A stretch of 64,000 bases of DNA from Roseobacter denitrificans OCh 114 (GTDB taxonomy: Bacteria > Pseudomonadota > Alphaproteobacteria > Rhodobacterales > Rhodobacteraceae). This document shows, piece after piece, positions 35,513 to 64,000 of this stretch. The notes below the pieces were generated by a model, which was not told the origin of the DNA, ran no database searches, and saw nothing but the letters and a program-made list of their open reading frames with translations. Made by a program: the position numbers and the translations under genes. Each line of letters starts with the position of its first letter. Positions within the stretch are counted from its first letter, which is position 1. The DNA lies in NCBI RefSeq assembly GCF_000014045.1, contig NC_008209.1:2255001-2319000 (forward strand), read 5' to 3'.

Positions 35513-35534
35513 CCGGACGCGTGATGAAAAGGGC

Positions 35535-40224: not shown

Positions 40225-40225
40225 G

Positions 40226-44363: not shown

Positions 44364-44397
44364 TCGCAGGCTCCGCGGCACTTGGGGTGGCATGGGT

Positions 44398-46742: not shown

Positions 46743-47561
46743 TCATTCGTTTACCTTGTCCAGCCCGATGCTCATCGACACGGCGACAAGCGCGAGGATT
46801 GCCAGCAGGATCTGAACGCCGGACACCGCTGCCACGAGGGGGGTGGAGGTGTATTGGACGAGGGCCAGCAACTCCACGGGCAAGGGTCTGTCCCGGAAGC
46901 CATGGGTGAAAATTGCGACCGACAGGTTGTCAAAGCCCTCGACGAAGGTGAACACAGCCCCCGCCAATATCGCCGGCAGCAACAGCGGGAATGTGATAGT
47001 GCGCAGGCTCTGAAAGGATGACGCACCGAGGTTCGTCGCGGCTTCCTCCAGCGCGGGGTCAAGCCGGACAAGACGGCTTTGCACCGTGCGCACCATGACG
47101 GCCATGATGAACACGGCGATCGAGACCGCCTGCAGCCAGATCGAGGGGGAGACGCCCACAAGCGCTCCGGCAAAGAGCACGGCCACCCCGAGAACGATGC
47201 CGGGCACCATATGCGGCACCAGCACGAAGACGGAAAGCGCCGTGGTGCCGCGAAACTTGCCACGTACACAGGCGAGGGCAGTGGGCACACCCAGCACGAT
47301 GCACAGTGCCGTGACCATCAGACCCACCTTGAGGCTGGTCCACATGGCGCCGACCAGTTCGGTCTGCTCAAAAACCTCTGCGTACCAGCGCAGGGTGAAG
47401 CCTTCCGGCGGAAAGCTCACGAACGCGCGGGTGTCAAAAGAAATGATGACAACAATGATCGACGGCGCGATCAGCAGGATCAGCGAAAACACCGCGATGA
47501 AAAGGACCAAACCGATGCCCAGAATATCCCCGAGCGAAGAGGTGCGCAGCGCTTTGATCAT
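46743..47561 (-). CDS. ABC importer permease (PotC-like), importer 3
   Basis: A 272-residue membrane protein with six helices. The EAA loop is EEAATNLGASSFQSLRTITFPL near residue 165. The start at 47561 overlaps the previous permease stop (ATGA); the longer frame to 47675 runs inside that gene. Last gene of the importer 3 operon. Confidence 0.87.
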   Translation of the reverse strand: MIKALRTSSLGDILGIGLVLFIAVFSLILLIAPSIIVVIISFDTRAFVSFPPEGFTLRWYAEVFEQTELVGAMWTSLKVGLMVTALCIVLGVPTALACVRGKFRGTTALSVFVLVPHMVPGIVLGVAVLFAGALVGVSPSIWLQAVSIAVFIMAVMVRTVQSRLVRLDPALEEAATNLGASSFQSLRTITFPLLLPAILAGAVFTFVEGFDNLSVAIFTHGFRDRPLPVELLALVQYTSTPLVAAVSGVQILLAILALVAVSMSIGLDKVNE

Positions 47562-49569: not shown

Positions 49570-50615
49570 GTCGCGGCGAACATTCGATCAAAGGACTCAA
49601 CGGTCTGGCGGCGCAAGGGCGCGAAATCAGGCCATTCTAGAGAGGTGGTCGTTGCCAGTTCTTCGGGTGTCGAAGGAACATAGGGCGCGGCCTCTGCAGG
49701 TACCTCGATGCCTTCCACGACCGTTCCGAAATAGATCGGCGCGCTGCCTGCCATCGACTGGATTTCCGGCGTCAGCAGAATGTCGGTGAATTCGTGCACA
49801 AGGTCTGCGGTGCCGTCCTGCGTATTGACAAACTGCACGATATTCGTGGGCAACATCAGCGGTCCTGGCCCCGTGATCTTGGTGTAGCCGATGGGCAACC
49901 CGGAGTTTGCGGCAAGTGCGGAATTGACGTGCCACAGGGGGGCCAGATCCACTTCGCCACGCTCGATCATCTGCTGCAGCAGCGGCGGTGAGCGGCCCAC
50001 CAGCGGATCAAGTTCCATCCATTTGTTCAGCGCAAAGTCCATGTCGGACTGCGGCATCCCAAAGGCTTCGCTGGTTGCGGCAAGGACCCCAAGGCCAAGG
50101 TTGGATTGCGGGCGACACATGCCAATGCGCCCGGTGTAGTCGCCGCTCCAGAGTTCTTCCCATGTGGTGGGCGGCGTGGTGATCTTGGTCTTGTCGTAGG
50201 CGATGCCGATCCCTTCAAACCAGATCGGCTGGCCGACGTCATAGCCATAGGACGGGAATTTCGGATCCACATTGGCCGTGTTCGGGATTTTTGAAAAGTC
50301 CAGTGGTACCAGGACATCTTCGGCCAGCGCGTTGATGATCGCGGGGGACCCCATGACGCCGAGGTCATAGGGAGAATTGCCCCGTGCCGCTTTGATCTGA
50401 GCGAGCGCTTCGGACGACAGGCCGCCGATGATGCGCAAAGAAACACCGGGGTTGCGGCGGGCAAGTTCTTCGCCGGCGGCAATCAGGGGCGCATCCGAAT
50501 CGTTACCATAGCCTGTCATTACCAATTCGCGGGTGGCAGCACGCAGGATTACCGGGCTGGCCAAGGCGGTTGCGGCTGTTAGCCCGCCAACAACGCTTCT
50601 TCTGGTTAGTTTCAT
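49566..50615 (-). CDS. ABC importer substrate-binding protein, importer 3
   Basis: A 349-residue periplasmic binding protein with a twin-arginine-like leader (MKLTRRSVVGGLTAATAL, cleavage near ILRAATR). The mature start ELVMTGYGNDSDAPLI resembles extracellular solute-binding family 1 proteins. The start at 50615 is fixed by the leader and a GGGAG about 8 nt upstream; the in-frame extension to 50783 is AT-rich non-coding sequence. The operon contains only transporter genes. The DeoR gene lies 160 bp upstream and probably regulates it. Confidence 0.86.
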   Translation of the reverse strand: MKLTRRSVVGGLTAATALASPVILRAATRELVMTGYGNDSDAPLIAAGEELARRNPGVSLRIIGGLSSEALAQIKAARGNSPYDLGVMGSPAIINALAEDVLVPLDFSKIPNTANVDPKFPSYGYDVGQPIWFEGIGIAYDKTKITTPPTTWEELWSGDYTGRIGMCRPQSNLGLGVLAATSEAFGMPQSDMDFALNKWMELDPLVGRSPPLLQQMIERGEVDLAPLWHVNSALAANSGLPIGYTKITGPGPLMLPTNIVQFVNTQDGTADLVHEFTDILLTPEIQSMAGSAPIYFGTVVEGIEVPAEAAPYVPSTPEELATTTSLEWPDFAPLRRQTVESFDRMFAAT

Positions 50616-50676
50616 GTCATGTCTCCCTGTCAGGATTGCTATGCCGGATTCCCGGTCGATGCAGTATACAACAAAA

Positions 50677-50697
50677 CCTTCGAATACTTTCGCAAGA
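50677..50697. promoter_or_regulatory. Candidate DeoR operator upstream of importer 3
   Basis: The strip contains CTTCGAATACTTTCGCAAGA, with TTCG repeated at 11-bp spacing, 62-82 bp upstream of the binding-protein start. TACTTTCG followed by AGA also occurs in the DeoR/SIS divergent promoter at 51581. Confidence 0.42.
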
Positions 50698-50775
50698 TAA
50701 AAAATAAAAAAGGCCGAAAATTTCTTTGCCGTTGATGACCTCGAAGCATCGCGCACAAAAAAGCGGCAGTTCATT

Positions 50776-51573
50776 TCAGGCAAGAATAACCTTCAGGCCC
50801 GATTTCTGCAGTTCGGACACATCGGTGGGGTTCGCCTTGCGATCGGTCACGAGTGTTGTGATATCCTGAATGGGGGCGATCCGCGCGCCGGCGACGTGCC
50901 CGATCTTGCCCCGATCGGCCAGCATGACGCAGCGCCGCGCGGCTGAAATCATGAAGCGTTTCACTTCTGCTTCTTCCAGGTTCGCGTTGGTAAAGCCGCG
51001 TTCTGCATCGATACCTGCGCAGCACAGGTAGGCGAAATCGGCGTTCAGGTGATCCAGCAGTAGCCCCGCAAAAGGCGGCACGAGGGAGCGGGAGTTTGGA
51101 TTTCGCCCCGATTTCTTAAGCTTACCCCCTGTTACGAAAACCGTCGCGCCGGGGTGTTTTTCAAGCGCAATCGCAATATCGAGGCTGGATGTAATGACCA
51201 CGACGTCCTCGATGTCCTTGGGCAGGGCCATCGCCATGGCAAGTGTGGTGGTTCCTGCATCGAGGATAATGGTTTCACCGCTGCGTACCATGCCAGCGGC
51301 GACAGCACCGATGCGCTCTTTCTCTGAGGTAAAGCTATGCGTCGGTACATCCACCGGGCGCTCGAAACGGGCGGCCTGCATGGCCATTGCGCCCCCCCGG
51401 ACCCGTCGCAGGAGCAAGCGTTTGTCCAGCGCATCAAGGTCCGAGCGAATGGTGACTGTGGAAACGCCGAGCGCATCCGAGAGTTGGCCGACGTCTGCGA
51501 TGCTTTGTTTGTTGACGATCTCCAGGATGCGCTGGTGTCTGTGCGTCAAAGGAGCATTATGCAGATTATCCAT
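50776..51573 (-). CDS. DeoR family transcriptional regulator
   Basis: A 265-residue DeoR-type repressor. The HTH at about residues 10-60 includes TVTIRSDLDALDKRLLLRRVRGGAM, the family signature. A DeoRC sensor domain (about 80-250) follows with the phosphosugar-binding DAGTTTLAMA segment near residue 103. These proteins usually sense phosphorylated sugars. It is divergent from the SIS-PfkB operon and upstream of importer 3, so it may control both. A phosphosugar made by the SIS and PfkB enzymes is a reasonable inducer. Confidence 0.88.
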   Translation of the reverse strand: MDNLHNAPLTHRHQRILEIVNKQSIADVGQLSDALGVSTVTIRSDLDALDKRLLLRRVRGGAMAMQAARFERPVDVPTHSFTSEKERIGAVAAGMVRSGETIILDAGTTTLAMAMALPKDIEDVVVITSSLDIAIALEKHPGATVFVTGGKLKKSGRNPNSRSLVPPFAGLLLDHLNADFAYLCCAGIDAERGFTNANLEEAEVKRFMISAARRCVMLADRGKIGHVAGARIAPIQDITTLVTDRKANPTDVSELQKSGLKVILA

Positions 51574-51580
51574 TCAGATT

Positions 51581-51609
51581 TACTTTCGAAGACTTGCATT
51601 TCATTTCAA
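51581..51609. promoter_or_regulatory. Candidate DeoR operator in the DeoR/SIS divergent promoter
   Basis: TACTTTCGAAGACTTGC followed by two TTTCA units lies just upstream of the DeoR start and 83-111 bp upstream of the SIS gene. The TACTTTCG-N-AGA element is shared with the site at 50677. Confidence 0.42.
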
Positions 51610-51691
51610 TATGGCAAATATCAAAAAGGCGCGTCGAGTGCCACATTTTTTCGATGCGCTCCTATGCTGGCGGTCAATCACGGAGAGCCCA

Positions 51692-52804
51692 ATGAGTATC
51701 GAGCAAAGACTGAAAGAAATCCGGCGCGAGTCGTCTTCGGATGCGGCTGGCGATCCGGAACGGTTTCGCCGTGTCGCGTTGACCGAATATGAGATGATGT
51801 CGCAAGGGGAGGCGATCAGCGCCACGCTTGAGGCAAACAGGGGCCCGCTAACGGATATCGGGCGCGATCTTGCGGGGCGGACGATCCGTCGCGTGGTCAC
51901 GGTCGGATGCGGCGACAGCTGGATCGCAGGTCACGGTGTGCGACCCGCCATCGAGGCGGCGCTCGGCGCGCCCTGCGAGCCTGTGGAAGCGTTTGATTTC
52001 GCCACGTACGGCTTGCACACGATTGATGCGGAAACCGTGGTGATCGGGCTGAGCTCTTCTGGAAAGACCGAGCCGGTGGTCGAAGGATTGACCGCGTCGG
52101 CTGCGCGGGGGGCATATACGATTGGTCTGTCCAACACGCTTGGGTCCCCGTTGATGGAACAATGCCCGGGTGCGCTGCATATTCGCGCGACACGGGGCGG
52201 TTGGCCCACGCAATCGAGCACGGCTGCGATGGCCCTGATGCTCGCGATGGCGGCGTCGGTGCAAAAGGCGAAAGGTGGAGACAGCAGCGCGCTTGAAGCT
52301 GCCCTCGATGCGCTGCCGGGTCAGGTGGATGACGTGGCGCAGGCTTTTTACGAGCCTGCCAAAGCAGTGGCAAAGCACCTTGCCCGCGCCGATCTTATTC
52401 TGACGACGGGGGCGGGTCCTTTCTTTGCCCCGGCAGAGTTCGGCGCGGCCAAGTTGAAGGAACTGGCCCCCATTCATGCCTATTCCTTTCCGCTGGAAGA
52501 GTATCACCATTACCGCACACAGAAAGCGGGCGATCCGATGTTCATGGTCGCGGGTGACGCAGAAAGCCACGCCCGTGCGCTGGAAACCGCGATCATGTCG
52601 CGGGGCTGTGAGGGCTATTGCGTGGCGTTGGTCCCCGAGGGTGAGACGGAAATTGCCGAGATCGCTGATGTGGCCTGGCATCTGCCGTTAGTGCCTGCCG
52701 AGACCGCACCGATTATCTACAGCGTGCCTTTGCACCTCTTTGGGTATCACGCCGCGGTAGAGCGCGATGCGCTTGGCCTTGGTGCGCCGAGGCTTGGTCT
52801 GTGA
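51692..52804 (+). CDS. SIS-domain sugar isomerase/deaminase (AgaS/FrlB-like)
   Basis: A 370-residue protein with two SIS domains. The first has VGCGDSWIAGHGVRPAIEA near residue 68 and the phosphosugar loop GLSSSGKTEPVVEG near residue 117. The second half has LILTTGAGPFFAPAEFGAAKLKE near residue 237. Relatives handle amino-sugar phosphates or fructosamine phosphates. I chose the ATG at 51692 (GGAGAG 8 nt upstream); the same frame extends far upstream antisense to the DeoR gene and that part is not real. First gene of a long plus-strand operon; PfkB follows after 1 bp. Confidence 0.82.
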   Translation: MSIEQRLKEIRRESSSDAAGDPERFRRVALTEYEMMSQGEAISATLEANRGPLTDIGRDLAGRTIRRVVTVGCGDSWIAGHGVRPAIEAALGAPCEPVEAFDFATYGLHTIDAETVVIGLSSSGKTEPVVEGLTASAARGAYTIGLSNTLGSPLMEQCPGALHIRATRGGWPTQSSTAAMALMLAMAASVQKAKGGDSSALEAALDALPGQVDDVAQAFYEPAKAVAKHLARADLILTTGAGPFFAPAEFGAAKLKELAPIHAYSFPLEEYHHYRTQKAGDPMFMVAGDAESHARALETAIMSRGCEGYCVALVPEGETEIAEIADVAWHLPLVPAETAPIIYSVPLHLFGYHAAVERDALGLGAPRLGL

Positions 52805-52805
52805 C

Positions 52806-53828
52806 GTGACGCCTGATCTGATCACGGTCGGCGGGCTTACGGTGGACAATGTCGTCGCTGCTGACGGCACGGTCGCGTTGGATGTGGCGGGGGGCAACGG
52901 GGCATTCTCTGCCGCAGGCGCGCTCAACTGGGTGCGCCGGGTCGGGTTGGTCAGCTGTGCGGTGGCGAGCTATCCCAAAGAAACCATCGCGCGGCTGGAG
53001 GCAGGGGGCGTCGATCTCTCCGGTGTGATCTGGCGTGACGCGACCTTGTCTGCGGGCAGTTGGTTTCTCTATGATGATTCCGGCCGGCGGGAAGAGGGGC
53101 TGACCGCGCCGGGCGCTGCACTGGCCGAGGCGGGTTTTCCGACGGACCGGCTGTCGCCCGCGCAAAAGGCCGCGTGGCGCAGCATGCTGCGGGATCATGC
53201 GCAACCGGACGAGATTGGGTATTCAGAGTTTCGTGTGTTACACCCCTTAACTGCGGCGCAGGTGCCCGCGTCATGGGGCGATGCGCCGGGTGTCCATCTG
53301 GCCCCGAGTGCGCTGGCGGTCGTCGGCGAGATGCTGGAATTCTTTGCCGGGAAAGGTGGCGTGATAACAGCGGATCCCGGCTGGCAGTTGGCCGACCTTT
53401 CGCTGGATGAACTTGGCCCGGTCCTCGCGCGGCTGGACGCCTTTCTGCCGAGCGAAGTCGAACTGCGTGCCCTCGTGCCCGGCGCGTCGGTCTCTGATGC
53501 ACTGGCGGAAGTGGCCGCGCGTTTTTCCGGTGCCCTCGTGGTCAAGATGGGACCAAAGGGCGCGCTGGTCTGGGACCGCAGCGCGGGCCAGCCGATCGAC
53601 GTGCCAGCCATCAAGGTGGCGACACGCGATCCGACGGGGGCAGGCGACAGTTTTTGCGGTGGCTTTCTGGCCGGATTGGTGGAAAGTGGCGACCCGGTGC
53701 AGGCGGCACACTTTGGCGCGATTTCCGCCGCCCGAACGGTGAGCACATTCGGCGCCTCAAACGCGTTGCCCGAAGATGCGACCCTCGCGCGCGCCGCATT
53801 GCAACAGGAAGCCAGTCTATGCCCTTGA
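52806..53828 (+). CDS. PfkB family carbohydrate/nucleoside kinase
   Basis: A 340-residue ribokinase-fold protein. The C-terminal signature DPTGAGDSFCGGFLAGL near residue 280 includes the catalytic Asp. The N-terminal DLITVGGLTVDN is the first strand of the fold. The likely start is a GTG at 52806, 1 bp after the SIS stop; an ATG at 52767 would add residues that overlap SIS. Substrate is probably a sugar or ribonucleoside-like compound. The gene ends inside the start of BtpA (10-bp overlap). Confidence 0.84.
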   Translation: MTPDLITVGGLTVDNVVAADGTVALDVAGGNGAFSAAGALNWVRRVGLVSCAVASYPKETIARLEAGGVDLSGVIWRDATLSAGSWFLYDDSGRREEGLTAPGAALAEAGFPTDRLSPAQKAAWRSMLRDHAQPDEIGYSEFRVLHPLTAAQVPASWGDAPGVHLAPSALAVVGEMLEFFAGKGGVITADPGWQLADLSLDELGPVLARLDAFLPSEVELRALVPGASVSDALAEVAARFSGALVVKMGPKGALVWDRSAGQPIDVPAIKVATRDPTGAGDSFCGGFLAGLVESGDPVQAAHFGAISAARTVSTFGASNALPEDATLARAALQQEASLCP

Positions 53829-54607
53829 AATTGTTCGACTCTAACAAACCCGTCATTGCCGCGCTGCACCTGCCGGATTTCGCGCTGAACCGGCATCTGT
53901 CGGTCGCATGGTACGAAGATTACGCGGTCGCAAACGCCCGCGTGTTTGCCGAGGCTGGCATCCCTTGGATCAAACTGCAGGATCAGACCAAGACCGCAGG
54001 ACAGGCAGCGCCGGACACGTTGACGTTGATGGCTTCACTCGCTCGTTTGATCCGCTCGGAAGTGCCGCAGCTTCGACTTGGTATCATCGTCGAGGCGCAT
54101 GATCCCGGTGCAGCCCTTTGCGTGGCGCATGCGTCGGGGGCCGATTTTATCCGGTTGAAGGTGTTTGTCGGCGGCGCCATGACCGCGCAAGGCCCGCGCG
54201 ATGGCCTGAGCGCGGAGGTTGTGGCGATGCGTTCTGAGCTGCGCCGCGCGGACATCGCGATACTGGCAGATATTCATGACCGCACGGCGATGCCGCTCTC
54301 TAGTGAAAGCCAGCCCTTTGCGGCAAACTGGGCTGTGAAATCCGGCGCCGATGGATTGGTCATTACTGGTGCGAGTTTCGCCGACACGCTGAGCCGCATC
54401 AGTGCCGTGCGGGACAGTGGTGCGCGTCGTCCCATCCTGATCGGAGGCGGCGTGACCGAGAGCAACGTGCATGAGGCGATGGCGGCAGCGGATGGTGTGA
54501 TCGTCAGCAGTGCCCTGATGCGGCGCGACGCGGCGGCGGATGATGTGATCCAATGGGACGCGGATCTGTGCAAGCGTTTCATGGACGCGGTCGGGGTGGC
54601 GGCATGA
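53819..54607 (+). CDS. BtpA/SgcQ family TIM-barrel protein (copy 2)
   Basis: A 262-residue protein with the pattern PVIAALHLPDF, then IPWIKLQDQT, LGIIVEAHDP, FIRLKVFVGG, IAILADIHDRT and, near the C-terminus, DGLVITGASF and ILIGGGVTESN. This is a phosphate-binding TIM barrel like BtpA/SgcQ. It is the second member in the window after the one at 9966-10703. The start ATG (53819) overlaps the end of the kinase gene. Linkage to a SIS isomerase and a PfkB kinase suggests that it acts on a phosphorylated sugar derivative. Confidence 0.75.
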   Translation: MPLKLFDSNKPVIAALHLPDFALNRHLSVAWYEDYAVANARVFAEAGIPWIKLQDQTKTAGQAAPDTLTLMASLARLIRSEVPQLRLGIIVEAHDPGAALCVAHASGADFIRLKVFVGGAMTAQGPRDGLSAEVVAMRSELRRADIAILADIHDRTAMPLSSESQPFAANWAVKSGADGLVITGASFADTLSRISAVRDSGARRPILIGGGVTESNVHEAMAAADGVIVSSALMRRDAAADDVIQWDADLCKRFMDAVGVAA

Positions 54608-55551
54608 CGCAGCCGCGCGACTTTGCAGGCTATGCGGGGCACCCCCCCGCGATGCGCTGGCCCAATGGCGCGGGTCTCGCGGTTTCCATCGTCGTGAATG
54701 TGGAAGAAGGCGCGGAGCTTTCCCTTAGCGCGGGGGATGAGCGCAACGAGCATATCTACGAGGCCGTTGAGCGGGTCGAAGGTCAGCCTGATCTCTGTAT
54801 GGAGAGCCACTTTGAATATGGGCCGCGCGCGGGATGGCCGCGCATTCGCGCGGCGTTGCGCAGTCGCAAGGTGCCTGCCACGCTGAACGCCTGCGGTCGC
54901 GCGTTGGAGGCGACGCCGTGGATTGCGCGCGAAGCCGTGCAGGACGGACACGAGATCGCGGCCCACGGCTGGCGCTGGGAGCGGCATGTCCACATGGACG
55001 AGCAGACCGAGCGGCGCGCCATCGCGCGCGCCGTGGCAGCCATCGAACGCGTGTCAGGTCGCCCGCCGCTGGGGTGGCATACCCGGTCCGCCACCTCGCT
55101 GCGCACCCGTGATTTGTTGATCGAGCAGGGCGGCTTTCTTTATGACAGCAATGCCTATAATGACGACATTCCGTATGTGGTTGATACGGGGCATGGCCCC
55201 CATGTGGTGCTGCCCTATGCCTTTGATACCAACGACATGCGGTATTACAACAATGGCGGTTTCGTCTTTGCCGAGGATTTCGCGCGCTACTGCATCGCGG
55301 GGTTCGACAGGCTGTTGAAGGAAGCCGACGATGCCCCGCGCATGCTGTCCATTGGCCTGCACACGCGCATTATCGGACGTCCGGCACGTATCGCGGGGCT
55401 GGAGGCTTTTCTGGACCACGCGCTGGCCCGCGAAAACGTCTGGTTCGCGAGCCGTGCCGACATCGCACATGCGTGGCGCAAGGCGATCGGACTGCCAGAC
55501 TGGCAGCCCCGTCCTTGTCCTGAAACCTTTGCAACGGATAGTCCCACATGA
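54604..55551 (+). CDS. PuuE-like polysaccharide-deacetylase-fold hydrolase (copy 1)
   Basis: A 315-residue protein beginning RDFAGYAGHPPAMRWPNGA, the start pattern of PuuE-type allantoinases. Motif 1 is VVNVEEGAE (Asp-Asp replaced by Glu-Glu) and motif 2 is HEIAAHGWRWERH near residue 118. Metal-independent allantoinase PuuE has the same EEG and HGxRW features and opens a hydantoin ring. The start overlaps the BtpA stop (ATGA) and the end overlaps the next deacetylase gene. Confidence 0.82.
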   Translation: MTQPRDFAGYAGHPPAMRWPNGAGLAVSIVVNVEEGAELSLSAGDERNEHIYEAVERVEGQPDLCMESHFEYGPRAGWPRIRAALRSRKVPATLNACGRALEATPWIAREAVQDGHEIAAHGWRWERHVHMDEQTERRAIARAVAAIERVSGRPPLGWHTRSATSLRTRDLLIEQGGFLYDSNAYNDDIPYVVDTGHGPHVVLPYAFDTNDMRYYNNGGFVFAEDFARYCIAGFDRLLKEADDAPRMLSIGLHTRIIGRPARIAGLEAFLDHALARENVWFASRADIAHAWRKAIGLPDWQPRPCPETFATDSPT

Positions 55552-56435
55552 CCCGTGACCTTATCGGCTATGGCGGCGCATGGCCCGCCCTGACCTGGCC
55601 GGGCGGGTCAAAACTCGCGGTTTCCGTTGTGGTCAATTTCGAGGAAGGGGCAGAGCAGCAGGTGATAGATGGCGATCCGGTCAGTGAACGGATGGGCGAG
55701 GTGATCTCCGTCGTGCCGGAGGGCAAACCGGATCCCGGGCAGGCGCAGATCTTTGCCTATGGCACCCGCGCGGGTGCGTGGCGTATGGCAGATGCCTTGC
55801 GGCAGTACCGCGTACCGGCGACTGTTTTCGCCTGTGGGCGCGCGGCCGAACGCGCAGCACCTGTTTTGCAAGTGTTTTGCGAGGATGGCCATGAAACCGC
55901 CTGCCACGGCTGGCTCTGGCGGCCGCATGCCGACTATGACACCGCCGAAGCCGAAGCCGAGGATCTGGATCGCGCAACAGCAGCGATTGCAAAAGTCACC
56001 GGTGCCGCGCCGGTCGGTTTTTTCTGCCGGGGTGCCGAAAGCCCATGGACCCGCGACCTGCTAGCGGCGCGTGGGTTTGTGTATACGTCCAACGGGTTTG
56101 ATGATGATCTGCCGTATCGCGATCCCTCCGGGCTGACGGTCGTTCCTTATGCGCTGGACGCCAATGACATGAAGTTCTTCCACCCCAACGGTTTCGTGCG
56201 GGCGCAGGACATGGTCGATTATGTCACGGATGCGCTGGATGTGCTGGAGGCCGAAGCCGCCCGAGGCCTGCCGCGTCTGCTCAACATCGGGTTTCACTTG
56301 CGCATCGTGGGGCGGCCCGGGCGGTTCAAGGCGTTCGAGCAGATCCTCGCTGAACTGGACCGCCGCCGCGACCGGCTCTGGCTGGCGCGGCGCATCGACA
56401 TCGCCGAGGCGTTTGACAAGGCCTGTCCGGCATGA
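55548..56435 (+). CDS. PuuE-like polysaccharide-deacetylase-fold hydrolase (copy 2)
   Basis: A 295-residue relative of the preceding gene: RDLIGYGGAWPALTWPGG start, VVNFEEGAE motif 1 and HETACHGWLWRPH motif 2, with FCRGAESPWTRDLL in place of the usual R-x-G-P-S segment. The two neighbours are clearly diverged, so they probably act on different ring forms or as a heteromer. It overlaps its neighbours on both sides by 4 bp. Confidence 0.82.
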   Translation: MTRDLIGYGGAWPALTWPGGSKLAVSVVVNFEEGAEQQVIDGDPVSERMGEVISVVPEGKPDPGQAQIFAYGTRAGAWRMADALRQYRVPATVFACGRAAERAAPVLQVFCEDGHETACHGWLWRPHADYDTAEAEAEDLDRATAAIAKVTGAAPVGFFCRGAESPWTRDLLAARGFVYTSNGFDDDLPYRDPSGLTVVPYALDANDMKFFHPNGFVRAQDMVDYVTDALDVLEAEAARGLPRLLNIGFHLRIVGRPGRFKAFEQILAELDRRRDRLWLARRIDIAEAFDKACPA

Positions 56436-57079
56436 TCGCCTTGATCAATCCAAATACGTCGACCGCCACGACCGCCGCTATGCTGCGTATCGCGCAGGAA
56501 ACGGCAGGGCCCGACGTGGACATACACGGCTTTACCGCGCCATTCGGGGCATCGCTCATCACGAATCCGCAGGCCTTGGCTGAGGCGGAACAGGCGGTGA
56601 TTGCCCTCGCACCAGAGCTGTCGCAGGCGTCTGCGGTGATCATTGCGGCTTTCGGTGATCCGGGTCTGAGCGCTTTGCGCGCACGTCTGCACAACCCTGT
56701 CACCGGCATTGCAGAAGCCGGCATGCAAGAGGCGGCGGAAGGGAAACGTGCCTTTGCGGTCGTCACGACAACACCGGATCTGGTGGATCCCATCGCTGAA
56801 ATGGCTTCTCGCAATGGTCATGCGACATTCATCGGAACATGGACCACAAAGGGCGATCCTGTGAGCTTGATGTCGAACGCGTCTGACCTGTGTGATGCAC
56901 TGGCAGAGGCGTGCGCCCGCGCCATGCGTGCAGGGGCAGGTGCAATTGTCATCGGGGGCGGGCCACTGGCGCAAGCCGCGCGCAGCCTGTCGGCTACCTC
57001 ACCCGTCCCGTTGATCGAGCCGCTGCCTGCTGCCGTCCGGCTGAGCCTCGCGCGCCTTGGGCAAGGGGGCGTTCAATGA
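56432..57079 (+). CDS. Asp/Glu/hydantoin racemase superfamily protein lacking both catalytic cysteines (copy 2)
   Basis: A 215-residue protein starting MIALINPNTSTATT. The first catalytic Cys position is Ala73 (IIAAFGDPGL) and the second is Gly176 (VIGGGPLAQ), the same replacements as in the copy at 39481. It is somewhat shorter than that copy (215 versus 247). It overlaps the upstream deacetylase and the downstream amidohydrolase by 4 bp each. Not a classical Cys-Cys racemase. Confidence 0.8.
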   Translation: MIALINPNTSTATTAAMLRIAQETAGPDVDIHGFTAPFGASLITNPQALAEAEQAVIALAPELSQASAVIIAAFGDPGLSALRARLHNPVTGIAEAGMQEAAEGKRAFAVVTTTPDLVDPIAEMASRNGHATFIGTWTTKGDPVSLMSNASDLCDALAEACARAMRAGAGAIVIGGGPLAQAARSLSATSPVPLIEPLPAAVRLSLARLGQGGVQ

Positions 57080-58587
57080 CCCGTCATCTGGTCGTCGCAG
57101 ATCATATCATCACCGGCTTTGACGCCGGTGGGGTGGCGCACATTGTCGAGGAGGGGGCGATCCTGATCGACGGCGACCGGGTGGCCGGGATCGGCGCGGC
57201 AAAGGCGCTTCGGCGGGCTCATCCGGATCTGCCCGAGACCGGAGGCGCGGGATATGTCGCCATGCCGGGCCTGATCAATGCGCATCATCACGTGGGTCTT
57301 ACACCGTTCCAGATGGGTGCGCGCGACCAGCCGCTGGAGCTGTGGTTTCCCGAACGCCTTGCCATGCGCGATGTGGATCCGCGTCTGGACACGCTCTATT
57401 CCGCGTTCGAGATGGTTGCATCGGGCGTGACCACGGTGCAGCACCTGCACAGCCGGGCGCCGGGGGACACCGACGCGGTGCTTGCCCGGGCCGATAAGAT
57501 CATTGGCGCGTACCGCGAATTGGGCATGCGGGCGAGCTACTCCTTTGCCCTGCGCGATCAGAACCGGATGATCTACGCCGCCGATGAGGAATTCGTGGCC
57601 GCGCTTCCGCCCGCGCTGCAGAAACCGACGGCAGAGTATCTCGCAGGCTTTGGACTGCCGCTGTCCGAGCAGATCGCGGTGTTTCATGCGCTGCGCGAAC
57701 GCTGGGCAGATGATCCGCTGATCGGGATACAGATTGCGCCCTCGAACCTGCACTGGTTGTCCGATGCAGCGCTGGAAAGTGCGGCGCGCATGGCGCAGGA
57801 CACCGGCGCGCCCTTGCACATGCACCTGCTGGAAACGCCCTATCAGCAAGAATACGCGCACAGGCGGACCGGGGGGTCTGCGCTGGAACATGTGGACAGC
57901 TTTGGGTTGATCGGACCGCAGCTTACGATCGGGCACGGGGTCTGGATGACGCCGGATGACATAGCGCTTGTGGCGGAGCGGGGGGCGTGTCTGTGCCACA
58001 ACTGCTCGTCAAACCTGCGGCTTAAAAGCGGGACGGCCGATCTGAATGCCTTTCTGGCCAGCGGCGTGCCTGTGGGGCTGGGCATTGACGAGGCGGGGAT
58101 CAACGATGACCGGGACATGCTGCAGGAAATGCGGCTGGCGCTGACGCTGCATCGCCCGCCCGGACATGACGCACCGTCCCCCGATGCCGGCGACATCCTG
58201 CGCATGGCCACAGAACACGGTGCCGCCACGACACCTTTCGCGGGTCGGATCGGTCGACTTGCGCCGGGGCAGATGGCCGATATTGTCTTGCTGGACTGGC
58301 GCGCCGTGACTTACCCCTGGCAAGATCCCGCAATGCCTTTGATAGATGTACTGGTAAGGCGCGCCAAAGCAGGGGTCGTCGCATCAGTGATGATCGGCGG
58401 GCGCACCGTTTACCGGGACGGCAATTTCATCGGCGTTGACCGCGGTGAAACCCTCAAGGAACTCGCGCTTGAGCTGGCCCGTCCGGACACCCCGACGGAT
58501 GCCAAGCTTCGGCGCTTGTCCCAAGACCTGTTGGAGCCTGTTCGCAGGCATTACAGCGGATGGTGCAAGGACCTTCAGGGCCGCTGA
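57076..58587 (+). CDS. Amidohydrolase superfamily deaminase/hydrolase (TRZ/ATZ type)
   Basis: A 503-residue metal-dependent amidohydrolase. Metal motif MPGLINAHHHVGL near residue 74; further ligands in PLHMHLLETPYQ near residue 253 and LTIGHGVWM near residue 286; catalytic Asp in GLGIDEAGINDDRD near residue 337. This is the subgroup with guanine, 8-oxoguanine and S-adenosylhomocysteine deaminases and triazine hydrolases, which deaminate or dechlorinate N-heterocycles. Last gene before the palindrome and importer 4. The C-terminal tail (about 60 residues after the barrel) is longer than usual. Confidence 0.83.
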   Translation: MTRHLVVADHIITGFDAGGVAHIVEEGAILIDGDRVAGIGAAKALRRAHPDLPETGGAGYVAMPGLINAHHHVGLTPFQMGARDQPLELWFPERLAMRDVDPRLDTLYSAFEMVASGVTTVQHLHSRAPGDTDAVLARADKIIGAYRELGMRASYSFALRDQNRMIYAADEEFVAALPPALQKPTAEYLAGFGLPLSEQIAVFHALRERWADDPLIGIQIAPSNLHWLSDAALESAARMAQDTGAPLHMHLLETPYQQEYAHRRTGGSALEHVDSFGLIGPQLTIGHGVWMTPDDIALVAERGACLCHNCSSNLRLKSGTADLNAFLASGVPVGLGIDEAGINDDRDMLQEMRLALTLHRPPGHDAPSPDAGDILRMATEHGAATTPFAGRIGRLAPGQMADIVLLDWRAVTYPWQDPAMPLIDVLVRRAKAGVVASVMIGGRTVYRDGNFIGVDRGETLKELALELARPDTPTDAKLRRLSQDLLEPVRRHYSGWCKDLQGR

Positions 58588-58634
58588 AAAAAAGCGCCCT
58601 TGGTTTTTCATCAGGTTGTTTTTTGCGCATTTCC

Positions 58635-58652
58635 AAAATGGCATGCCATTTT
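58635..58652. promoter_or_regulatory. Perfect 18-bp palindrome AAAATGGCATGCCATTTT upstream of importer 4
   Basis: A perfect inverted repeat in the 169-bp gap between the amidohydrolase and the importer 4 ATPase. Its 16-bp core is identical to the palindrome at 45485-45500, which lies beside the GntR/FCD gene. It ends 104 bp upstream of the chosen ATPase start. Confidence 0.8.
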
Positions 58653-58756
58653 ATTGAGCAGGTCGCCGGATGGCCTTGTCGCACGGGTCGGAAAGTCTGG
58701 CCGCCCGGTTTGGGTGCGAATACGCAAGTTTTGTGCAAAATTATAACGGACAGACT

Positions 58757-59893
58757 GTGGAACGCGCCATTTCCATCGACGACGGGGCGATCACGCCAAA
58801 CGCTCAAAAGCAATCGGTTGGCGAGCCGCTGACCCTTGGTGGCATATCGCACAGCTATGGGGACGGGCTGGCCGTCGATGACGTCACACTGGAAGTTGCC
58901 GGTGGGGAACTGATTGCGCTTCTGGGTCCGTCCGGGTGTGGGAAATCCACCCTGCTTCGCATCGTGGCGGGGTTCCTCGAACAAACCAGAGGTGAGGTAA
59001 AGATCGGGGATCGCTTTGTCGATTCCTTGCCCCCGAACCGTCGCGAGGTGGGGATCGTTTTCCAGAATTACGCGCTCTTTCCACATATGACCGTGGCCGA
59101 CAATATCGCCTACGGTCTTGATGCGCGCGGCGACGCCAAATCCGATCAGCGACAGCGTGTGTCGGAAATGCTCAAGACCGTGCGGATGGAAGCCTTTGGC
59201 AATCGCAAGCCGGGGCAACTGTCGGGCGGACAACAGCAGCGCGTTGCCCTTGCGCGTGCGCTTGCTGTACGGCCCCGTATCCTGCTGCTTGATGAACCCT
59301 TTGCCGCGCTGGACAAGAATCTGCGCCTTGATATGCAGATCGAAATCAAGCGACTGCAACGCCAGTTCGCGCTGACCGCGATCCTCGTGACCCACGATCA
59401 GGAAGAGGCCATGGGCATCGCTGACCGCATTGCGGTGATGAACAAGGGCCGCATTGAGCAATTGGGCAGTCCGGTGGAAATCTACGACCAGCCCGCGACG
59501 CTGTTCGTCAATGATTTCATCGGATCTTCGAACCGGTTCGCGGGGGAGGTGTTGGGTCGCGAAGCGGACCGCTATGTCATTCGTCTCGACAATGGCGCGA
59601 TCTGGCACGTGGCATCGTCCAAGACTTTCAATACTGCAGACGGGGTCCTGCTGACTGTGCGGCCGGAACAGCTGATGCTGGTGGACCAGCCCGCGCCGGG
59701 CGCGTTTGCGGTCGAGCACACGCTGAGTATGCCCCTCGGCGGGACGCTCATTCACGATGTTCAGACGCCAGATGGTGCCACCATCAAGGTGGCAGCGCCG
59801 CGCCGTGTGGGCGAGGTGGCAACGCCCCTTGGCCCGAGCCACTGCGCGCTGGCTGAGACGGCCGCCCCGATCCTCTTTCCCAAGCCCAAATGA
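58757..59893 (+). CDS. ABC importer ATPase (PotA-like), importer 4
   Basis: A 378-residue ATPase with Walker A GPSGCGKST, signature [15 protein letters not shown], Walker B ILLLDEPFAALD and a C-terminal TOBE domain. I favour a GTG start at 58757 (GGA about 7 nt upstream). An ATG at 58670 in the same frame would place the start only 18 bp after the palindrome and adds a non-conserved extension; it cannot be excluded. Unlike importers 1 and 2, here the ATPase precedes the binding protein. Confidence 0.85.
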   Translation: MERAISIDDGAITPNAQKQSVGEPLTLGGISHSYGDGLAVDDVTLEVAGGELIALLGPSGCGKSTLLRIVAGFLEQTRGEVKIGDRFVDSLPPNRREVGIVFQNYALFPHMTVADNIAYGLDARGDAKSDQRQRVSEMLKTVRMEAFGNRKPGQLSGGQQQRVALARALAVRPRILLLDEPFAALDKNLRLDMQIEIKRLQRQFALTAILVTHDQEEAMGIADRIAVMNKGRIEQLGSPVEIYDQPATLFVNDFIGSSNRFAGEVLGREADRYVIRLDNGAIWHVASSKTFNTADGVLLTVRPEQLMLVDQPAPGAFAVEHTLSMPLGGTLIHDVQTPDGATIKVAAPRRVGEVATPLGPSHCALAETAAPILFPKPK

Positions 59894-59934
59894 AAACAAC
59901 CATAAAACACCCAAATCCAACAAAGGAGACCACC

Positions 59935-60966
59935 ATGAATGACCTTTCCCGCCGAAGACTCTTGCAAAGCGCCGCCGCGTTCGGCGCAGCCTCAGCCTTG
60001 CCGTTCTCGGCTGCGCGTGCTGCGGACTCTCTGGCAGCCGCCATCTATCCAGGAACCTGGGACGAGGCCTACCGGTCCGTCGTCGCCCCCTTGCTTGCGC
60101 AAAAGCATGGCGTGGATGTGGCTTTTGATCCGCTGTGGGCCGTGGATCAGGTCACCAAGGCACGCGCCGGGCGCGGTATTGCGCCGTTTGACTGTTTTGT
60201 CCTCGACCCCGGACCCACGGCTGCGGCGAGAGAGGCCGATCTTTTCGAGCCGATTGACGCCTCTATGCTGTCCAATGCGGCAAACCTGCCCGATGGGATG
60301 ATCTCGGCGGATGCGGCGACCGTCAATGTGCAGGTTGTTGGCCTGTGCTATAACCCGACCGCCTTCCCCGAGCCGCCAACCCGTTGGGAGCAGATATTCG
60401 AGTCTCCTTATGTCGAACGGCTTGGCCTCACGGGGTTCCAGACCACATTCGGTACGGTGTCCCTGATCGAGATGGCAAAGGTCTTTGGCGGGTCCGACAC
60501 GGATATGGAGCCGATCTTTGCAAAACTGCAGGAAGCGCTTCCCAAGGTTGCAGCCGTCACCGGGCCCGCCGGGTTGCCCGGCCTGTTCCAGCAGGGTCAG
60601 ATCGATCTGATGTATACCAACACCAACAACGTCGCGACGCTCAAGGCGCAGGGTGTGGACATCGAATTCATCGCGCCTGAAACCGGGGCCATCACATTCT
60701 CGACGTCTCTTCACATCACGAAGGGGTCCGAGAACGTCGAAGCCGCGCACAAATACATCGACACGGCGATCTCGGCTGAAGCCCAGTCGCAATTGCAGCT
60801 GTCCCCCTACAACATGATCCCGGTGAACAAGCAGGTCGAACTGGCAGAGACCCTTTACATCAAATCCGTGGATGAGTTGTCGGATATGGTTGTGCACGAT
60901 TGGAGCGTGATCAATCCGCAGCGTGCGGGGTGGATTGAGCGGTTCAACAAAGAGATCACCAAGTAA
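59935..60966 (+). CDS. ABC importer substrate-binding protein, importer 4
   Basis: A 343-residue periplasmic binding protein with a twin-arginine leader (LSRRRLLQSAAAFGAAS, cleavage near ARAADS). AAGGAG 8 nt before the ATG at 59935 decides this start over an earlier one at 59890. The mature part (AIYPGTWDEAYRSVV and later LMYTNTNNVATLKAQG) resembles the PotD/PotF group. Cargo unknown; the operon context suggests a cyclic amide. Confidence 0.87.
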   Translation: MNDLSRRRLLQSAAAFGAASALPFSAARAADSLAAAIYPGTWDEAYRSVVAPLLAQKHGVDVAFDPLWAVDQVTKARAGRGIAPFDCFVLDPGPTAAAREADLFEPIDASMLSNAANLPDGMISADAATVNVQVVGLCYNPTAFPEPPTRWEQIFESPYVERLGLTGFQTTFGTVSLIEMAKVFGGSDTDMEPIFAKLQEALPKVAAVTGPAGLPGLFQQGQIDLMYTNTNNVATLKAQGVDIEFIAPETGAITFSTSLHITKGSENVEAAHKYIDTAISAEAQSQLQLSPYNMIPVNKQVELAETLYIKSVDELSDMVVHDWSVINPQRAGWIERFNKEITK

Positions 60967-60968
60967 TC

Positions 60969-61820
60969 ATGGCTGGTGCCGCAACATATGAACCCGGACG
61001 TGTGGACTGGCGGCTCGCAGCGCCGCTCGGTCTGACGTATCTGGCGTTTTTTGCGGCACCGCTCCTTATCCTGCTGGCGATGTCGTTTGCGGCGGATGAT
61101 CGTTTTGCGTCCTTCTCTGCGGACAGTTGGGTCAAGTTCTGGGGCGACCCGTTCTATCGCGGCGTTGTCTATGACACGGTGTGGCTTGGTCTGATCGCCG
61201 TGGTGGCGACGTCGATCCTGTCCTATCCGATTGCGCTTCTGTTCATTTCGTGCGGGCCGCGCCTGCGGAAACTTCTGATCTTCATCATCCTGCTTCCGCT
61301 GCTGACATCGGTGGTGATCCGCACGTTCGCTTGGATCGTGATCCTCGCGCGCGAGGGCGTGGTCAATCAGACCCTGATCAGCCTCGGGCTGACTTCTGCG
61401 CCGCTGAACCTTTTGCAAACAGAACTGGGCCTCGTGATTGCGCTGACGCAGATCGAGATGCCCCTGATGCTGTTACCGCTCGTCACGGTCATGCAGCAAA
61501 TCAACCCCAGCCTGTCGGATGCGTCCCGCGCGCTTGGCGGTTCCAAATGGCGCACATTCTTCCGCATCATCCTGCCGCTTTCGCTGCCCGGATGGATTGC
61601 GGGCGCAACCCTTGTGTTCGCCTCGGCGACAACCGCGTTCATCTCGCAGACGGTGATTGGTGGCGCGCGTCTTGTCTATCTGCCGTCGCTGATCTGGCAG
61701 CAATCGATGGTCGTTTTCGACTGGCCCTTTGCCGCCGTGGCATCGGTTACACTGCTGGTTGCTGTGCTCAGCGGCGTGATGCTGTTTTCCCTGCTTGGTC
61801 GTTTTGCGAGGATAGACTGA
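60969..61820 (+). CDS. ABC importer permease (PotB-like), importer 4
   Basis: A 283-residue permease with six helices; first helix about residues 17-38, EAA-like loop SDASRALGGSKWRTFFRIILPL near residue 180. It starts 2 bp after the binding-protein stop and its stop shares a base with the next ATG. Confidence 0.87.
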   Translation: MAGAATYEPGRVDWRLAAPLGLTYLAFFAAPLLILLAMSFAADDRFASFSADSWVKFWGDPFYRGVVYDTVWLGLIAVVATSILSYPIALLFISCGPRLRKLLIFIILLPLLTSVVIRTFAWIVILAREGVVNQTLISLGLTSAPLNLLQTELGLVIALTQIEMPLMLLPLVTVMQQINPSLSDASRALGGSKWRTFFRIILPLSLPGWIAGATLVFASATTAFISQTVIGGARLVYLPSLIWQQSMVVFDWPFAAVASVTLLVAVLSGVMLFSLLGRFARID

Positions 61821-62641
61821 TGGCGCATCGCAGCACCGTTTCGGACCGGTCCTATTCCATTGTCATGGGCGGCCTTGCAGCACTTGGCATCCTGATCCTT
61901 GTGGGTCCCGTGATCATCGTGCTGCTCACGTCGTTCACATCGTCCCGCGTGTTGACCTTTCCGCCGCCGGGTTTTTCGCTTGAATGGTATGCGGCGCTTT
62001 TTGATCCGGTGAAGTCGGGTCATATCCATTCGGCCTTGGCCAATTCCCTCTATGTCGCCGCGATTGCCACGGCCCTCGCTGTCCTGCTTGCAACGGCTGC
62101 GGCACTGGCCATGGCCCGGTCCAGGGGGGCCTCTGCGCGCGCACTCGAAGCCAGCTTCATGTCACCCCTGATCTTGCCGGGATTGTCCTTTGGCTTGGCG
62201 GCGTTGATGTTTTTCTCGATCCTCGGGTTTCGTCCATCGATCAATCACCTGATTGCGGGGCATCTTGTGGTGATCGCGCCTTTCGTCTTTCGCACGACGC
62301 TCGCGAGCCTGTCACAATTCAACCCGGCACTTCTGGAAAGCTCTGCCAGCCTTGGGGCAGGGCGCTTTTATGCGTTCCGCCGGATTACGCTGCCAATCAT
62401 CACGCCGGGCATTGTTGCGGGCGGATTTCTGGCATTCGTGGCGTCGATGGACAACGTGCCGGTGTCGCTGTTCCTGTCCAATGCCCGCACCAATATGCTG
62501 CCCATTCGCATGTGGGGCATGATGGAAACCACCCTTGATGTGCGCGTGGCCGCGATTTCCGGTGTGATCATCATCGCCGTGCTCGTGTTGATGATTGTGA
62601 TGGATCGATTGACCGGCCTGACGCGCCGGATGAGTATGTGA
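61820..62641 (+). CDS. ABC importer permease (PotC-like), importer 4
   Basis: A 273-residue permease beginning MAHRSTVSDRSYSIVMGGL. Start at 61820 (TGATG junction with the preceding gene); the longer frame upstream is antisense-like noise inside that gene. EAA loop LESSASLGAGRFYAFRRITLP near residue 175 and SMDNVPVSLFLSNARTNMLPI near residue 215 match the PotC group. Confidence 0.87.
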   Translation: MAHRSTVSDRSYSIVMGGLAALGILILVGPVIIVLLTSFTSSRVLTFPPPGFSLEWYAALFDPVKSGHIHSALANSLYVAAIATALAVLLATAAALAMARSRGASARALEASFMSPLILPGLSFGLAALMFFSILGFRPSINHLIAGHLVVIAPFVFRTTLASLSQFNPALLESSASLGAGRFYAFRRITLPIITPGIVAGGFLAFVASMDNVPVSLFLSNARTNMLPIRMWGMMETTLDVRVAAISGVIIIAVLVLMIVMDRLTGLTRRMSM

Positions 62642-62648
62642 GGCCCAG

Positions 62649-63560
62649 ATGACTTACCCCCGAGATTTTGTTGGCTATGGCGCCAACCCGCCGGATCCGA
62701 AATGGCCAAATGGCGCGCGTGTCGCTATCAATTTTGTGATGAACTACGAAGAGGGGTCCGAGCCGTCGATTCAGGATGGTGAGGGCTTTACCGAGGTCGC
62801 ACTGACAGACGCCCACGGCCTTGATCAAGCGGTCAAGGGGCGTGATCTGGCGGGCGAAGGGCTCTTTGCCTATGGCAGCCGCGTGGGGTTCTGGCGGCTG
62901 ATGCGGCTTTTTCAGGAGCGCGGGTTGCCCATGACGGTCTTTGGCTGCGCGCTGGCGATCGAGCGGAACCGGCAAGCGGCGCAAGCCATTCGCGATTCTG
63001 GATTTGACTGTTGCTGCCATGGCTGGCGCTGGGTCAAGCACTTTGAGTTGAGTGAAGACGAAGAGCGAGACCATATCAAACGTGCCATCGCTTCACTGCG
63101 GGAAACCTTGGGCGAGCGGCCCCTTGGATGGTACTGCCGCTATGGTCCCAGCGTAAACACCCGCAAGCTGGTGGTGGAGGAGGGCGGTTTCCTCTACGAT
63201 TCAGACGCTTACGACGATGAATTGCCCTATTGGACCAAAGTCGCTGGCAAACCGCATCTGGTCGTTCCCTATTCGCTGACCAACAATGATGCGAAATTCT
63301 GCGGATCCTTTGCGACGTCCAACGATTACTTCGAGTGGCACAAGGATGCCTTCGACATGCTCTACCGGGAAGGGGCGAGCGCGCCCAAGATGATGTCGGT
63401 CGGGCTGCACATGCGGCTGATCGGGCATCCCGCGCGGGCCGTGGGCTTGGAACGTTTCCTCGATTATGTTGCCGGTCATGACGATGTCTGGATCACGCGG
63501 CGGCTGGATATCGCCCATCATTGGGCCAAAACACATCCCTATTCCGGACCTCTTGGATGA
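62649..63560 (+). CDS. PuuE-like polysaccharide-deacetylase-fold hydrolase (copy 3)
   Basis: A 303-residue PuuE-type protein: RDFVGYGANPPDPKWPNGA start, FVMNYEEGSEPS motif 1, CCHGWRWVKHFELS motif 2 and WYCRYGPSVNTR near residue 160. Of the three paralogs this is nearest to the true allantoinase pattern (NYEEGxE). It follows importer 4 by 7 bp and overlaps the beta-propeller gene, so it is co-expressed with the transporter. Confidence 0.85.
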   Translation: MTYPRDFVGYGANPPDPKWPNGARVAINFVMNYEEGSEPSIQDGEGFTEVALTDAHGLDQAVKGRDLAGEGLFAYGSRVGFWRLMRLFQERGLPMTVFGCALAIERNRQAAQAIRDSGFDCCCHGWRWVKHFELSEDEERDHIKRAIASLRETLGERPLGWYCRYGPSVNTRKLVVEEGGFLYDSDAYDDELPYWTKVAGKPHLVVPYSLTNNDAKFCGSFATSNDYFEWHKDAFDMLYREGASAPKMMSVGLHMRLIGHPARAVGLERFLDYVAGHDDVWITRRLDIAHHWAKTHPYSGPLG

Positions 63561-64000
63561 GCGGCACGCGACACCAGATCGTCGTTGCATTGGGTGACAC
63601 CCGCTACCGCGTGGATCGACCCTTTGGGACGTGGCCGCAAACCGCCGGTAAGGTGTCGGATGTCGTCGTCCTGCGCGATGGCCGTGTCCTTGTGTTGCTG
63701 CGCAGCGACCCTTATGTGGACCCGGATGGTCCGCGTGTCATCGTGCTGTCCTGCGACGGTGACTACCTTGGCGCATGGGGCGATCTTGACATCGCTGATG
63801 CGCATTTGATGACCCCGGCGCCGGATGGGCGTCTTTTCATCGTCGACCGTGACATGCATGAAATCATCGTCTTTTCCGCAGATGGACAGCGGGTCGGGGG
63901 GATTGGCACACGCGGGGCACCCGGTACGCCGTTCAATCACCCCACGGATGTGGCTTTTGCGCCAAGCGGTGACTTTTATGTGTCAGATGGCTATGCTGGC
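63557..64000 (+). CDS. NHL-type beta-propeller protein (partial, cut by window edge)
   Basis: The first 148 codons of a protein open to the window end. The start ATG overlaps the deacetylase stop (ATGA). It contains repeated blades of the NHL type: VVVLRDGRVLVLLR, then PAPDGRLFIVDRDMHEIIVFSADG, then FNHPTDVAFAPSGDFYVSDG. Proteins of this type include peptidyl-alpha-hydroxyglycine lyases and various lactonase-like enzymes. No signal peptide is visible. Its place in the operon suggests an enzyme of the same pathway, possibly a lactonase or lyase. Confidence 0.75.
   Translation, partial: MSGTRHQIVVALGDTRYRVDRPFGTWPQTAGKVSDVVVLRDGRVLVLLRSDPYVDPDGPRVIVLSCDGDYLGAWGDLDIADAHLMTPAPDGRLFIVDRDMHEIIVFSADGQRVGGIGTRGAPGTPFNHPTDVAFAPSGDFYVSDGYAG

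Follow-up and report, generated by a model that had tools for sequence, protein, structure and literature searches.

What compound is degraded by a gene island that sets sugar-phosphate enzymes beside enzymes of cyclic-amide hydrolysis? The question is raised by a locus of Roseobacter denitrificans OCh 114 within a stretch of 64,000 nucleotides (positions 2255001-2319000 of contig C1; hereafter the window) of this 4.33 Mb, five-contig genome. In the island, a SIS-domain sugar-phosphate enzyme (SIS), a PfkB kinase and a BtpA-family TIM barrel, together called the triad, are followed by two PuuE-like hydrolases (PuuE1 and PuuE2), a racemase homologue (Rac) and an amidohydrolase (AH). We tentatively propose that the island catabolises a cyclic compound that is rich in nitrogen and linked to a sugar, the likeliest candidate being an N-glycoside akin to a nucleoside or a ureide riboside; we regard this as quite possible, while stopping short of calling it probable. 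The nucleoside-like N-glycoside is favoured because of the BMP-type importer genes that adjoin the triad in other genomes and because of the best match of the kinase.

A preliminary description had treated positions 51581-64000 as one operon of plus-strand genes with 1-10 bp overlaps, broken by a single 169-bp gap. Open reading frames of the window and its flank give thirteen plus-strand genes from SIS (51692) through an NHL propeller (64411); the gap, which separates AH from the ATPase gene of importer 2, is real, and most junctions overlap by 1-8 bp, those from SIS to AH by 4-8 bp, but gaps of 2 and 7 bp also occur, and one of 41 bp is possible at the binding-protein junction of importer 2 if that gene starts at 59935. 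The single operon itself was discarded: in genomes G050 and G192 the core stops after AH and the genes corresponding to those beyond the gap are absent beside it, and the gap contains a palindrome present at just one further site in the genome. Units A and B are separate, with the gap as their boundary. The core extends leftward instead, deoR, once counted with the plus-strand set, being on the minus strand at the head of a divergent importer operon (46743-51573) that lies outside the operon as first drawn. A simple scan found no terminator in the 169-bp gap, and the hairpin after AH barely beats shuffled sequences (z -1.47; 18/200 shuffles equally good). The families first assigned to the genes of units A and B agree with Pfam and NCBIfam, all NCBIfam scores being under their curated cut-offs.

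The arrangement of unit A is conserved. Its seven plus-strand genes also stand head to head with deoR and the importer operon in G050 and G192, and the order recurs, not scattered, in many Rhodobacterales and related loci, as had been anticipated, while it is split in Bosea. Across 48 named loci collected via BtpA, relatives near BtpA were counted for SIS and PfkB (42 each), AH (37), each importer permease (34), PuuE1 (32), PuuE2 (28), DeoR (23) and Rac (21); these counts take the best match of at least 45 bits, include remote paralogues as present and cover several loci cut by contig ends, and the loci are not all independent, the same contigs appearing twice (L033/L041, L037/L082, L038/L084 and L142/L072). 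Among 292 Rhodobacterales genomes, SIS (E<=1e-40) was found in 4, BtpA (>=47% identity) in 5 and PuuE1 (E<=1e-100) in 8, the smaller sets nested within the larger. Since the eight congeners within this collection gave no SIS match, the island seems to be an uncommon accessory element; the closest SIS protein found (96% identical) comes from a metagenome-assembled genome (MAG) named Sulfitobacter. The triad ranges over Alphaproteobacteria, three MAGs labelled Betaproteobacteria or betaproteobacterial genera (L060, L061, L071) and two genomes of the order of locus L086. The L086 BtpA was found in 2/345 genomes of that order, and the BtpA of M. huakuii in 2/385 Alphaproteobacteria at E<=1e-25, one being its own genome. 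Among the plasmid records examined (15-30 of 144-399 listed; once 6/6), the full triad occurred in M. huakuii only, in a gene order unlike that of the window.

SIS matches NagB-II and GlmS and belongs to the GlmS/NagB-II/FrlB type; the GlmS-type catalytic Glu/His pair (presumably residues 488 and 504 of GlmS, hence E488/H504 equivalents) is kept in 41/41 unit-A-type SIS proteins and in E. coli FrlB. PfkB (PF00294, 75.7 bits) has a GAGD motif, G281-A282-G283-D284, that is invariant in 32 sequences (alignment A3, which takes 31 of the 41 PfkB frames found, the L080 match having a stop). It resembles the PfkB nucleoside kinases (3kd6, MJ0406, BthNK), and 3kd6 of the PDB is its top match in both structure and profile comparisons, but at just 22% identity. 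A PfkB-type kinase paired with a double-SIS enzyme in which the GlmS-fold Glu and His are retained is also found in frl/fra Amadori catabolism (FrlB/FraB, FrlD/FraD). The substrate might be glycated, a 1-deoxyketosyl derivative of a cyclic amide or of an amino acid; PfkB and SIS would then play the parts of FraD/FraB or FrlD/FrlB, while the ring enzymes and AH would trim the amine part and BtpA would process the sugar phosphate. Opines are imported by related importers of the polyamine/opine type, and the SIS type with its catalytic pair suits such a route. In the fra system, according to PMC4941530, a kinase and a SIS deglycase free the sugar phosphate, and the amine part is handled by a hydrolase. 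The island is nevertheless far under the cut-offs for FrlB (fructoselysine-6-phosphate deglycase; SIS 32.7 bits, cut-off 430) and FrlD (PfkB 40.2, cut-off 247), and it has in addition BtpA, PuuE-like hydrolases, a Cys-less racemase homologue and the TRZ/ATZ-type amidohydrolase. BtpA is missing from the frl operon of E. coli, and an Amadori or opine substrate predicts neither BMP-type importers nor the nucleoside-kinase fold match. We consider it unlikely, while keeping it in serious view.

BtpA is a TIM barrel of the BtpA/SgcQ family (PF03437, 105.9 bits, gathering score 30) that stays under the NCBIfam cut-offs for BtpA/SgcQ (TIGR00259, 106.7 vs 153.4) and for photosystem I BtpA (NF045918, 92.8 vs 400). 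A lysine, Lys112, placed by model and alignment at the end of strand 4, is present in 42/42 aligned proteins (alignment A2: the window and 41 of the 48 loci, leaving out L052, L055, L065, L067, L082, L085 and L087), and nearly all generic BtpA/SgcQ proteins are without it. Residues D53, H92, K112, D152-R153 and S228 are invariant, and generic members mostly differ there. A comparison covering L141 and L085, in which L086 was entered twice, includes one L085 BtpA (about 9980-10620) whose internal deletion takes out the Lys112 region. Fold searches fitted many chemistries and singled out none: the neighbours of BtpA include KDPG (2-keto-3-deoxy-6-phosphogluconate) aldolases, but equally phosphate-binding isomerases and synthases.

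Those aldolases and the invariant lysine at the end of strand 4 would suit a route for an amino-sugar amide, with BtpA as a sugar-splitting TIM-barrel aldolase, SIS as a deaminase like AgaS or NagB-II, PfkB as a kinase of the tagatose/fructose-phosphate type, and the ring enzymes removing a cyclic amide group from the amino sugar. AgaR is the closest model to DeoR, SIS has its NagB-II and GlmS matches and PfkB a weak match to a tagatose kinase model. All the equivalog scores are under cut-off, however, the nearest structure to PfkB is a nucleoside kinase, and the isomerases and synthases are as close to BtpA as the aldolases, so that we find such a route improbable. The sgc genes of E. coli offer another comparison through SgcQ, but they have a phosphotransferase system and an epimerase where the island has SIS and PfkB; the E. 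coli SgcQ record (L099, 5112-5918), which aligns with the BtpA family, reads 'putative nucleoside triphosphatase'. PfkB genes also lie near generic BtpA in L094-L098. In L095-L098, generic BtpA beside PfkB/ribokinase genes and a sugar-type importer makes up another uncharacterised BtpA cluster, whose further neighbours vary (phosphotriesterase-related, glutamine amidotransferase-like, TenA-family and Zn-hydrolase genes).

The ring enzymes have recognisable folds. PuuE1, PuuE2 and PuuE3 align over their full length with the solved PuuE allantoinase of the purine/ureide pathway (3cl6; E 4.5e-76, 2.6e-63 and 4.7e-106), but score below the PuuE cut-off. Their assignment as the allantoinase of this genome was rejected as a default, a further PuuE-like gene (a 477-codon open frame) lying at C1:4020071, about 1.7 Mb away, and PuuE3-like genes (E<=1e-60) occurring in 286/292 genomes; around those of G141, G253, G236, G029 and G119 no unit B was found. 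Rac, of PF01177 like the HyuE-type hydantoin/allantoin racemases, aligns over its whole length with 3qvj, but both Rac and its window paralogue rac0 have Ala and Gly in place of the two catalytic cysteines. The missing cysteines noted in the preliminary description are real: both are absent from 21/21 Rac orthologues and from five plasmid homologues examined, and the Cys-less state is, on these alignments, a family trait. Two-cysteine racemase activity was rejected for Rac on this ground; to judge from its residues, Rac must do something different from such racemisation, or merely bind. Of eight rac0-like rows, four are without both cysteines, three (L077, L079, L083) keep both and L049 keeps one. 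The plasmid loci (L088-L092) carry the Cys-less homologue away from the triad; peptide/Opp-type or similar ATP-binding cassette importers lie near it in four of the five, and one has ureidoglycolate lyase and Zn-dependent hydrolase genes nearby. Deaminases that act on nucleobases, nucleosides and triazines come closest to AH, whose nearest NCBIfam models are all under cut-off (8-oxoguanine deaminase PRK08203, 177 bits, cut-off 532). H250, H287, H308 and D338 are invariant in 37 sequences, and the N-terminal HxH pair, which failed the coverage filter, was seen in the window sequence only. Where examined, the active sites look competent.

Do the two sets of enzymes serve one pathway? In three genomes a PuuE1-like gene (54-57% identical) adjoins Rac-like genes without the triad, with AH-, amidase- and hydantoinase-like neighbours too in the case of G084; the ring module is therefore separable, and the triad likewise occurs without it. 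Two pathways, one for cyclic amides (hydantoins/ureides) and one for sugar phosphates, each with its own substrate, might then merely lie side by side. Against this stand the overlapping genes with their constant order across Rhodobacterales, the single divergent regulator with its conserved upstream element, and the reunion of both modules in Skermanella, Aureimonas and Ancylobacter, and we think it more improbable still than an amino-sugar amide. In several loci, including those of Skermanella aerolata, Aureimonas and Ancylobacter, SIS and PfkB are each present twice and there is a pair of binding proteins. A single BtpA is surrounded by doubled SIS and PfkB genes in L061, L065, L067, L069, L070 and L074, the second pair being 27-31% like that of the window where matched. 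In L056 (8697-10971), an ornithine-cyclodeaminase-like reductase and an ArgE/DapE-type deacylase follow BtpA, replacing the ring enzymes.

Regulatory sites link the island to a second set of genes. In the divergent deoR-SIS region lies an element patterned as CTTGCGTTT...aaTGA...ATATCGAAAG; the alignment takes in 16 loci, Bosea among them, with a diverged copy in the window (no pair could be used from L042, L055 or L056, L044 was left out because its DeoR is not divergent, and L033 was dropped). This imperfect inverted repeat appears operator-like, and DeoR would control unit A. A perfect 16-bp palindrome, AAATGGCATGCCATTT, occurs in two copies about 13 kb apart, one in the 169-bp gap upstream of unit B and one upstream of a hydantoinase unit (unit 0) on the other side of unit A. 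No further genomic site was found within one mismatch of its 14-base core, and 0.43 sites with up to three mismatches to the 16-mer are expected per shuffled window. In Marivita lacus the core TGGCATGCCA likewise stands ahead of the unit-B homologue, at L085:4201; in Jiella, sbp0 is preceded by a copy that differs in one base, at L083:395. Of six related units, the palindrome is recognisable upstream of those in L085 and L083 and doubtful in L049, with no site found in L050, L053 and L081; none is clear ahead of the sbp0 genes of Bosea and Elioraea, and the exact 12-mer is absent from 102/102 loci examined. Because they have this palindrome in common, units 0 and B are probably one regulon bracketing unit A, most simply under the GntR/FCD-type regulator at 45598-46302, which we propose to bind both copies.

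Homologues of importer 0 lie beside the triad in L049, L050, L053, L083 and L081. Three Bosea genomes and Jiella have relatives of both importer 0 and rac0 at this place, and Elioraea has those of the importer only. A tie between unit 0 and the island is thus supported by the common palindrome and by gene neighbourhood in other genomes. In Marivita lacus (L085), unit B homologues, with an importer 2 set 85-94% identical, adjoin BtpA, PuuE1 and PuuE2, the shortened BtpA lying between them and PuuE1/PuuE2; SIS and PfkB were not found in this locus.

A nucleoside-like N-glycoside would draw these observations together. The preliminary description had envisaged import, ring opening, and phosphorylation and cleavage of the sugar of a glycosylated ureide or nucleoside-like substrate; this is supported in so far as BMP-type (nucleoside-type) importer genes adjoin the triad in three distant loci, PfkB is nearest to a nucleoside kinase and a hydantoinase unit is linked, but the core importer is not of the nucleoside type. 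Several further findings weigh against an N-glycoside. (i) None of importers 0-2 of the window is of the nucleoside/BMP type; the best weak NCBIfam match of the importer 1 binding protein is of the 2-aminoethylphosphonate type, and that of importer 2, likewise weak, is to polyamine binding proteins. (ii) The BtpA proteins of the three BMP-associated loci are just 30-40% identical to that of the window, and Opp-type importers serve other triad loci. (iii) The structural matches of PfkB under 3kd6 include ribokinases and a sulfofructose kinase, and the low FrlB and FrlD scores given above count here too. (iv) L141 has a Lys112-bearing BtpA with no triad nearby, and in G168 the SIS match is just 42% identical and on a different contig from BtpA. 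(v) The modules, as described, also occur apart.

For an N-glycoside, importer 1 would take up the glycosylated cyclic compound, AH would strip an exocyclic amino group, PuuE1 and PuuE2 would hydrolyse the resulting cyclic amide and open the ring, and the Cys-less Rac may act on an intermediate of this opening. PfkB would phosphorylate the sugar part, and BtpA, as a barrel of the phosphate-binding type, would work with the double-SIS enzyme to split off the nitrogenous moiety, freeing a sugar phosphate that the cell can use. The second regulon, units 0 and B, would handle related cyclic amides without sugar. The fra gene order is the reverse of the reaction steps, according to the authors of PMC4941530. 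By analogy, a reverse reading with AH first and SIS last would lend this order weak support, weak because the gene order of M. huakuii differs. More specifically, the triad could dismantle an N-glycoside without a nucleosidase: PfkB would phosphorylate the sugar of the (ring-opened) nucleoside-like compound, the Lys112-type BtpA, on its related phosphate-binding barrel, would perform a HisA/TrpF-like Amadori rearrangement, and SIS would deglycate the Amadori phosphate to sugar phosphate and amine. We rate this particular scheme as distinctly unlikely; in L086 a nucleoside hydrolase adjoins the triad, which speaks against a nucleosidase-free route there.

Table 1. Features of the island and its surroundings (positions are those of the window)
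Feature	Unit	Position (strand)	Basis or remark
Unit 0	0	38087-45453 (-)	hydantoinase, rac0, amidase, importer 0
Hydantoinase/dihydropyrimidinase	0	38087-39484 (-)	PRK13404 736 bits (cut-off 647); TIGR02033 502 (393)
rac0, Cys-less hydantoin-racemase homologue	0	39481-40224 (-)	AAFGDPG / GGAPLA at both catalytic-Cys positions
Amidase	0	40226-41563 (-)	PF01425, 275.5 bits
Importer 0 (two permeases, ATPase, binding protein)	0	41684-45453 (-)	open reading frames; NCBIfam of ATPase and binding protein
Palindrome AAATGGCATGCCATTT		45485-45500	perfect, 16 bp; upstream of unit 0
GntR/FCD-type regulator		45598-46302 (-)	weak NCBIfam matches to GntR-family models, below cut-off
Unit A	A	46743-51573 (-); 51692-58587 (+)	importer 1 and DeoR, divergent from SIS-PfkB-BtpA-PuuE1-PuuE2-Rac-AH
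Importer 1 (permB1, permA1, atp1, sbp1)	A	46743-50615 (-)	kept beside deoR and SIS in G050, G192 and named loci
DeoR-family regulator	A	50776-51573 (-)	PF00455, PF08220; AgaR model 173.9 bits (cut-off 260)
Operator/promoter-like element, divergent deoR-SIS region		51593-51627	aligned in 16 intergenic regions; located by pattern
SIS, sugar-phosphate isomerase/deglycase-type enzyme	A	51692-52804 (+)	PF01380
PfkB kinase	A	about 52797-53828 (+)	PF00294; start uncertain, 52767 possible
BtpA-family TIM barrel with Lys112	A	53825-54607 (+)	PF03437
PuuE1, PuuE-like hydrolase	A	54604-55551 (+)	TIGR03212 302 bits (cut-off 424.6)
PuuE2, PuuE-like hydrolase	A	55548-56435 (+)	TIGR03212 259 bits (cut-off 424.6)
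Rac, Cys-less Asp/Glu/hydantoin-racemase homologue	A	56432-57079 (+)	PF01177
AH, TRZ/ATZ deaminase-type amidohydrolase	A	57076-58587 (+)	PF01979
Palindrome AAATGGCATGCCATTT		58636-58651	perfect, 16 bp; in 169-bp gap, upstream of unit B
Unit B	B	58757-64411 (+)	importer 2, PuuE3, NHL propeller
Importer 2	B	58757-62641 (+)	ATPase 58757-59893; binding protein 59890 or 59935-60966; permeases 60969-61820, 61820-62641
PuuE3, PuuE-like hydrolase	B	62649-63560 (+)	TIGR03212 394 bits (cut-off 424.6); aligns to 3cl6
NHL beta-propeller	B	63557-64411 (+)	PF01436; 3' end past window edge (64000)

The coordinates are compiled in Table 1. The genes past 64411, which we take to be unrelated, presumably include nitrate-reductase-like ones. 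Elsewhere in the window, what we take to be phosphonate-type genes (phnM/carbon-phosphorus lyase-like and importer genes) occupy 21933-37455, and at 29355-32466 a presumed ArsR-type regulator fused to an arsenate-reductase-like domain, a glyceraldehyde-3-phosphate dehydrogenase and a major facilitator superfamily protein stand in a row, resembling, as we read it, an arsenate-to-1-arseno-3-phosphoglycerate efflux set.

Neither a description of this gene set nor a characterised pathway containing it was found in the open-licence literature among the matches listed, a search that did not cover most subscription papers or those merely mentioning btpA or sgcQ. The set, apparently undescribed, would join kinase/deglycase catabolism to cyclic-amide hydrolysis, and its most original part is the distinct BtpA subgroup. 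Clear targets are offered by the Cys-less racemase homologues and by the Lys112 BtpA subgroup, which departs from generic BtpA at the positions that it conserves best. Given the spread of the triad, many genomes could be annotated from them. If the proposal of an N-glycoside is true, the island would serve to catabolise nitrogen heterocycles linked to sugars, which may be a class of dissolved organic nitrogen, and would give a clue to catalysis by a branch of the BtpA/SgcQ family. Should the nucleosidase-free action of the triad also hold, this branch would have a catalytic role, and a third way to break nucleoside-type bonds would stand beside hydrolysis and phosphorolysis.

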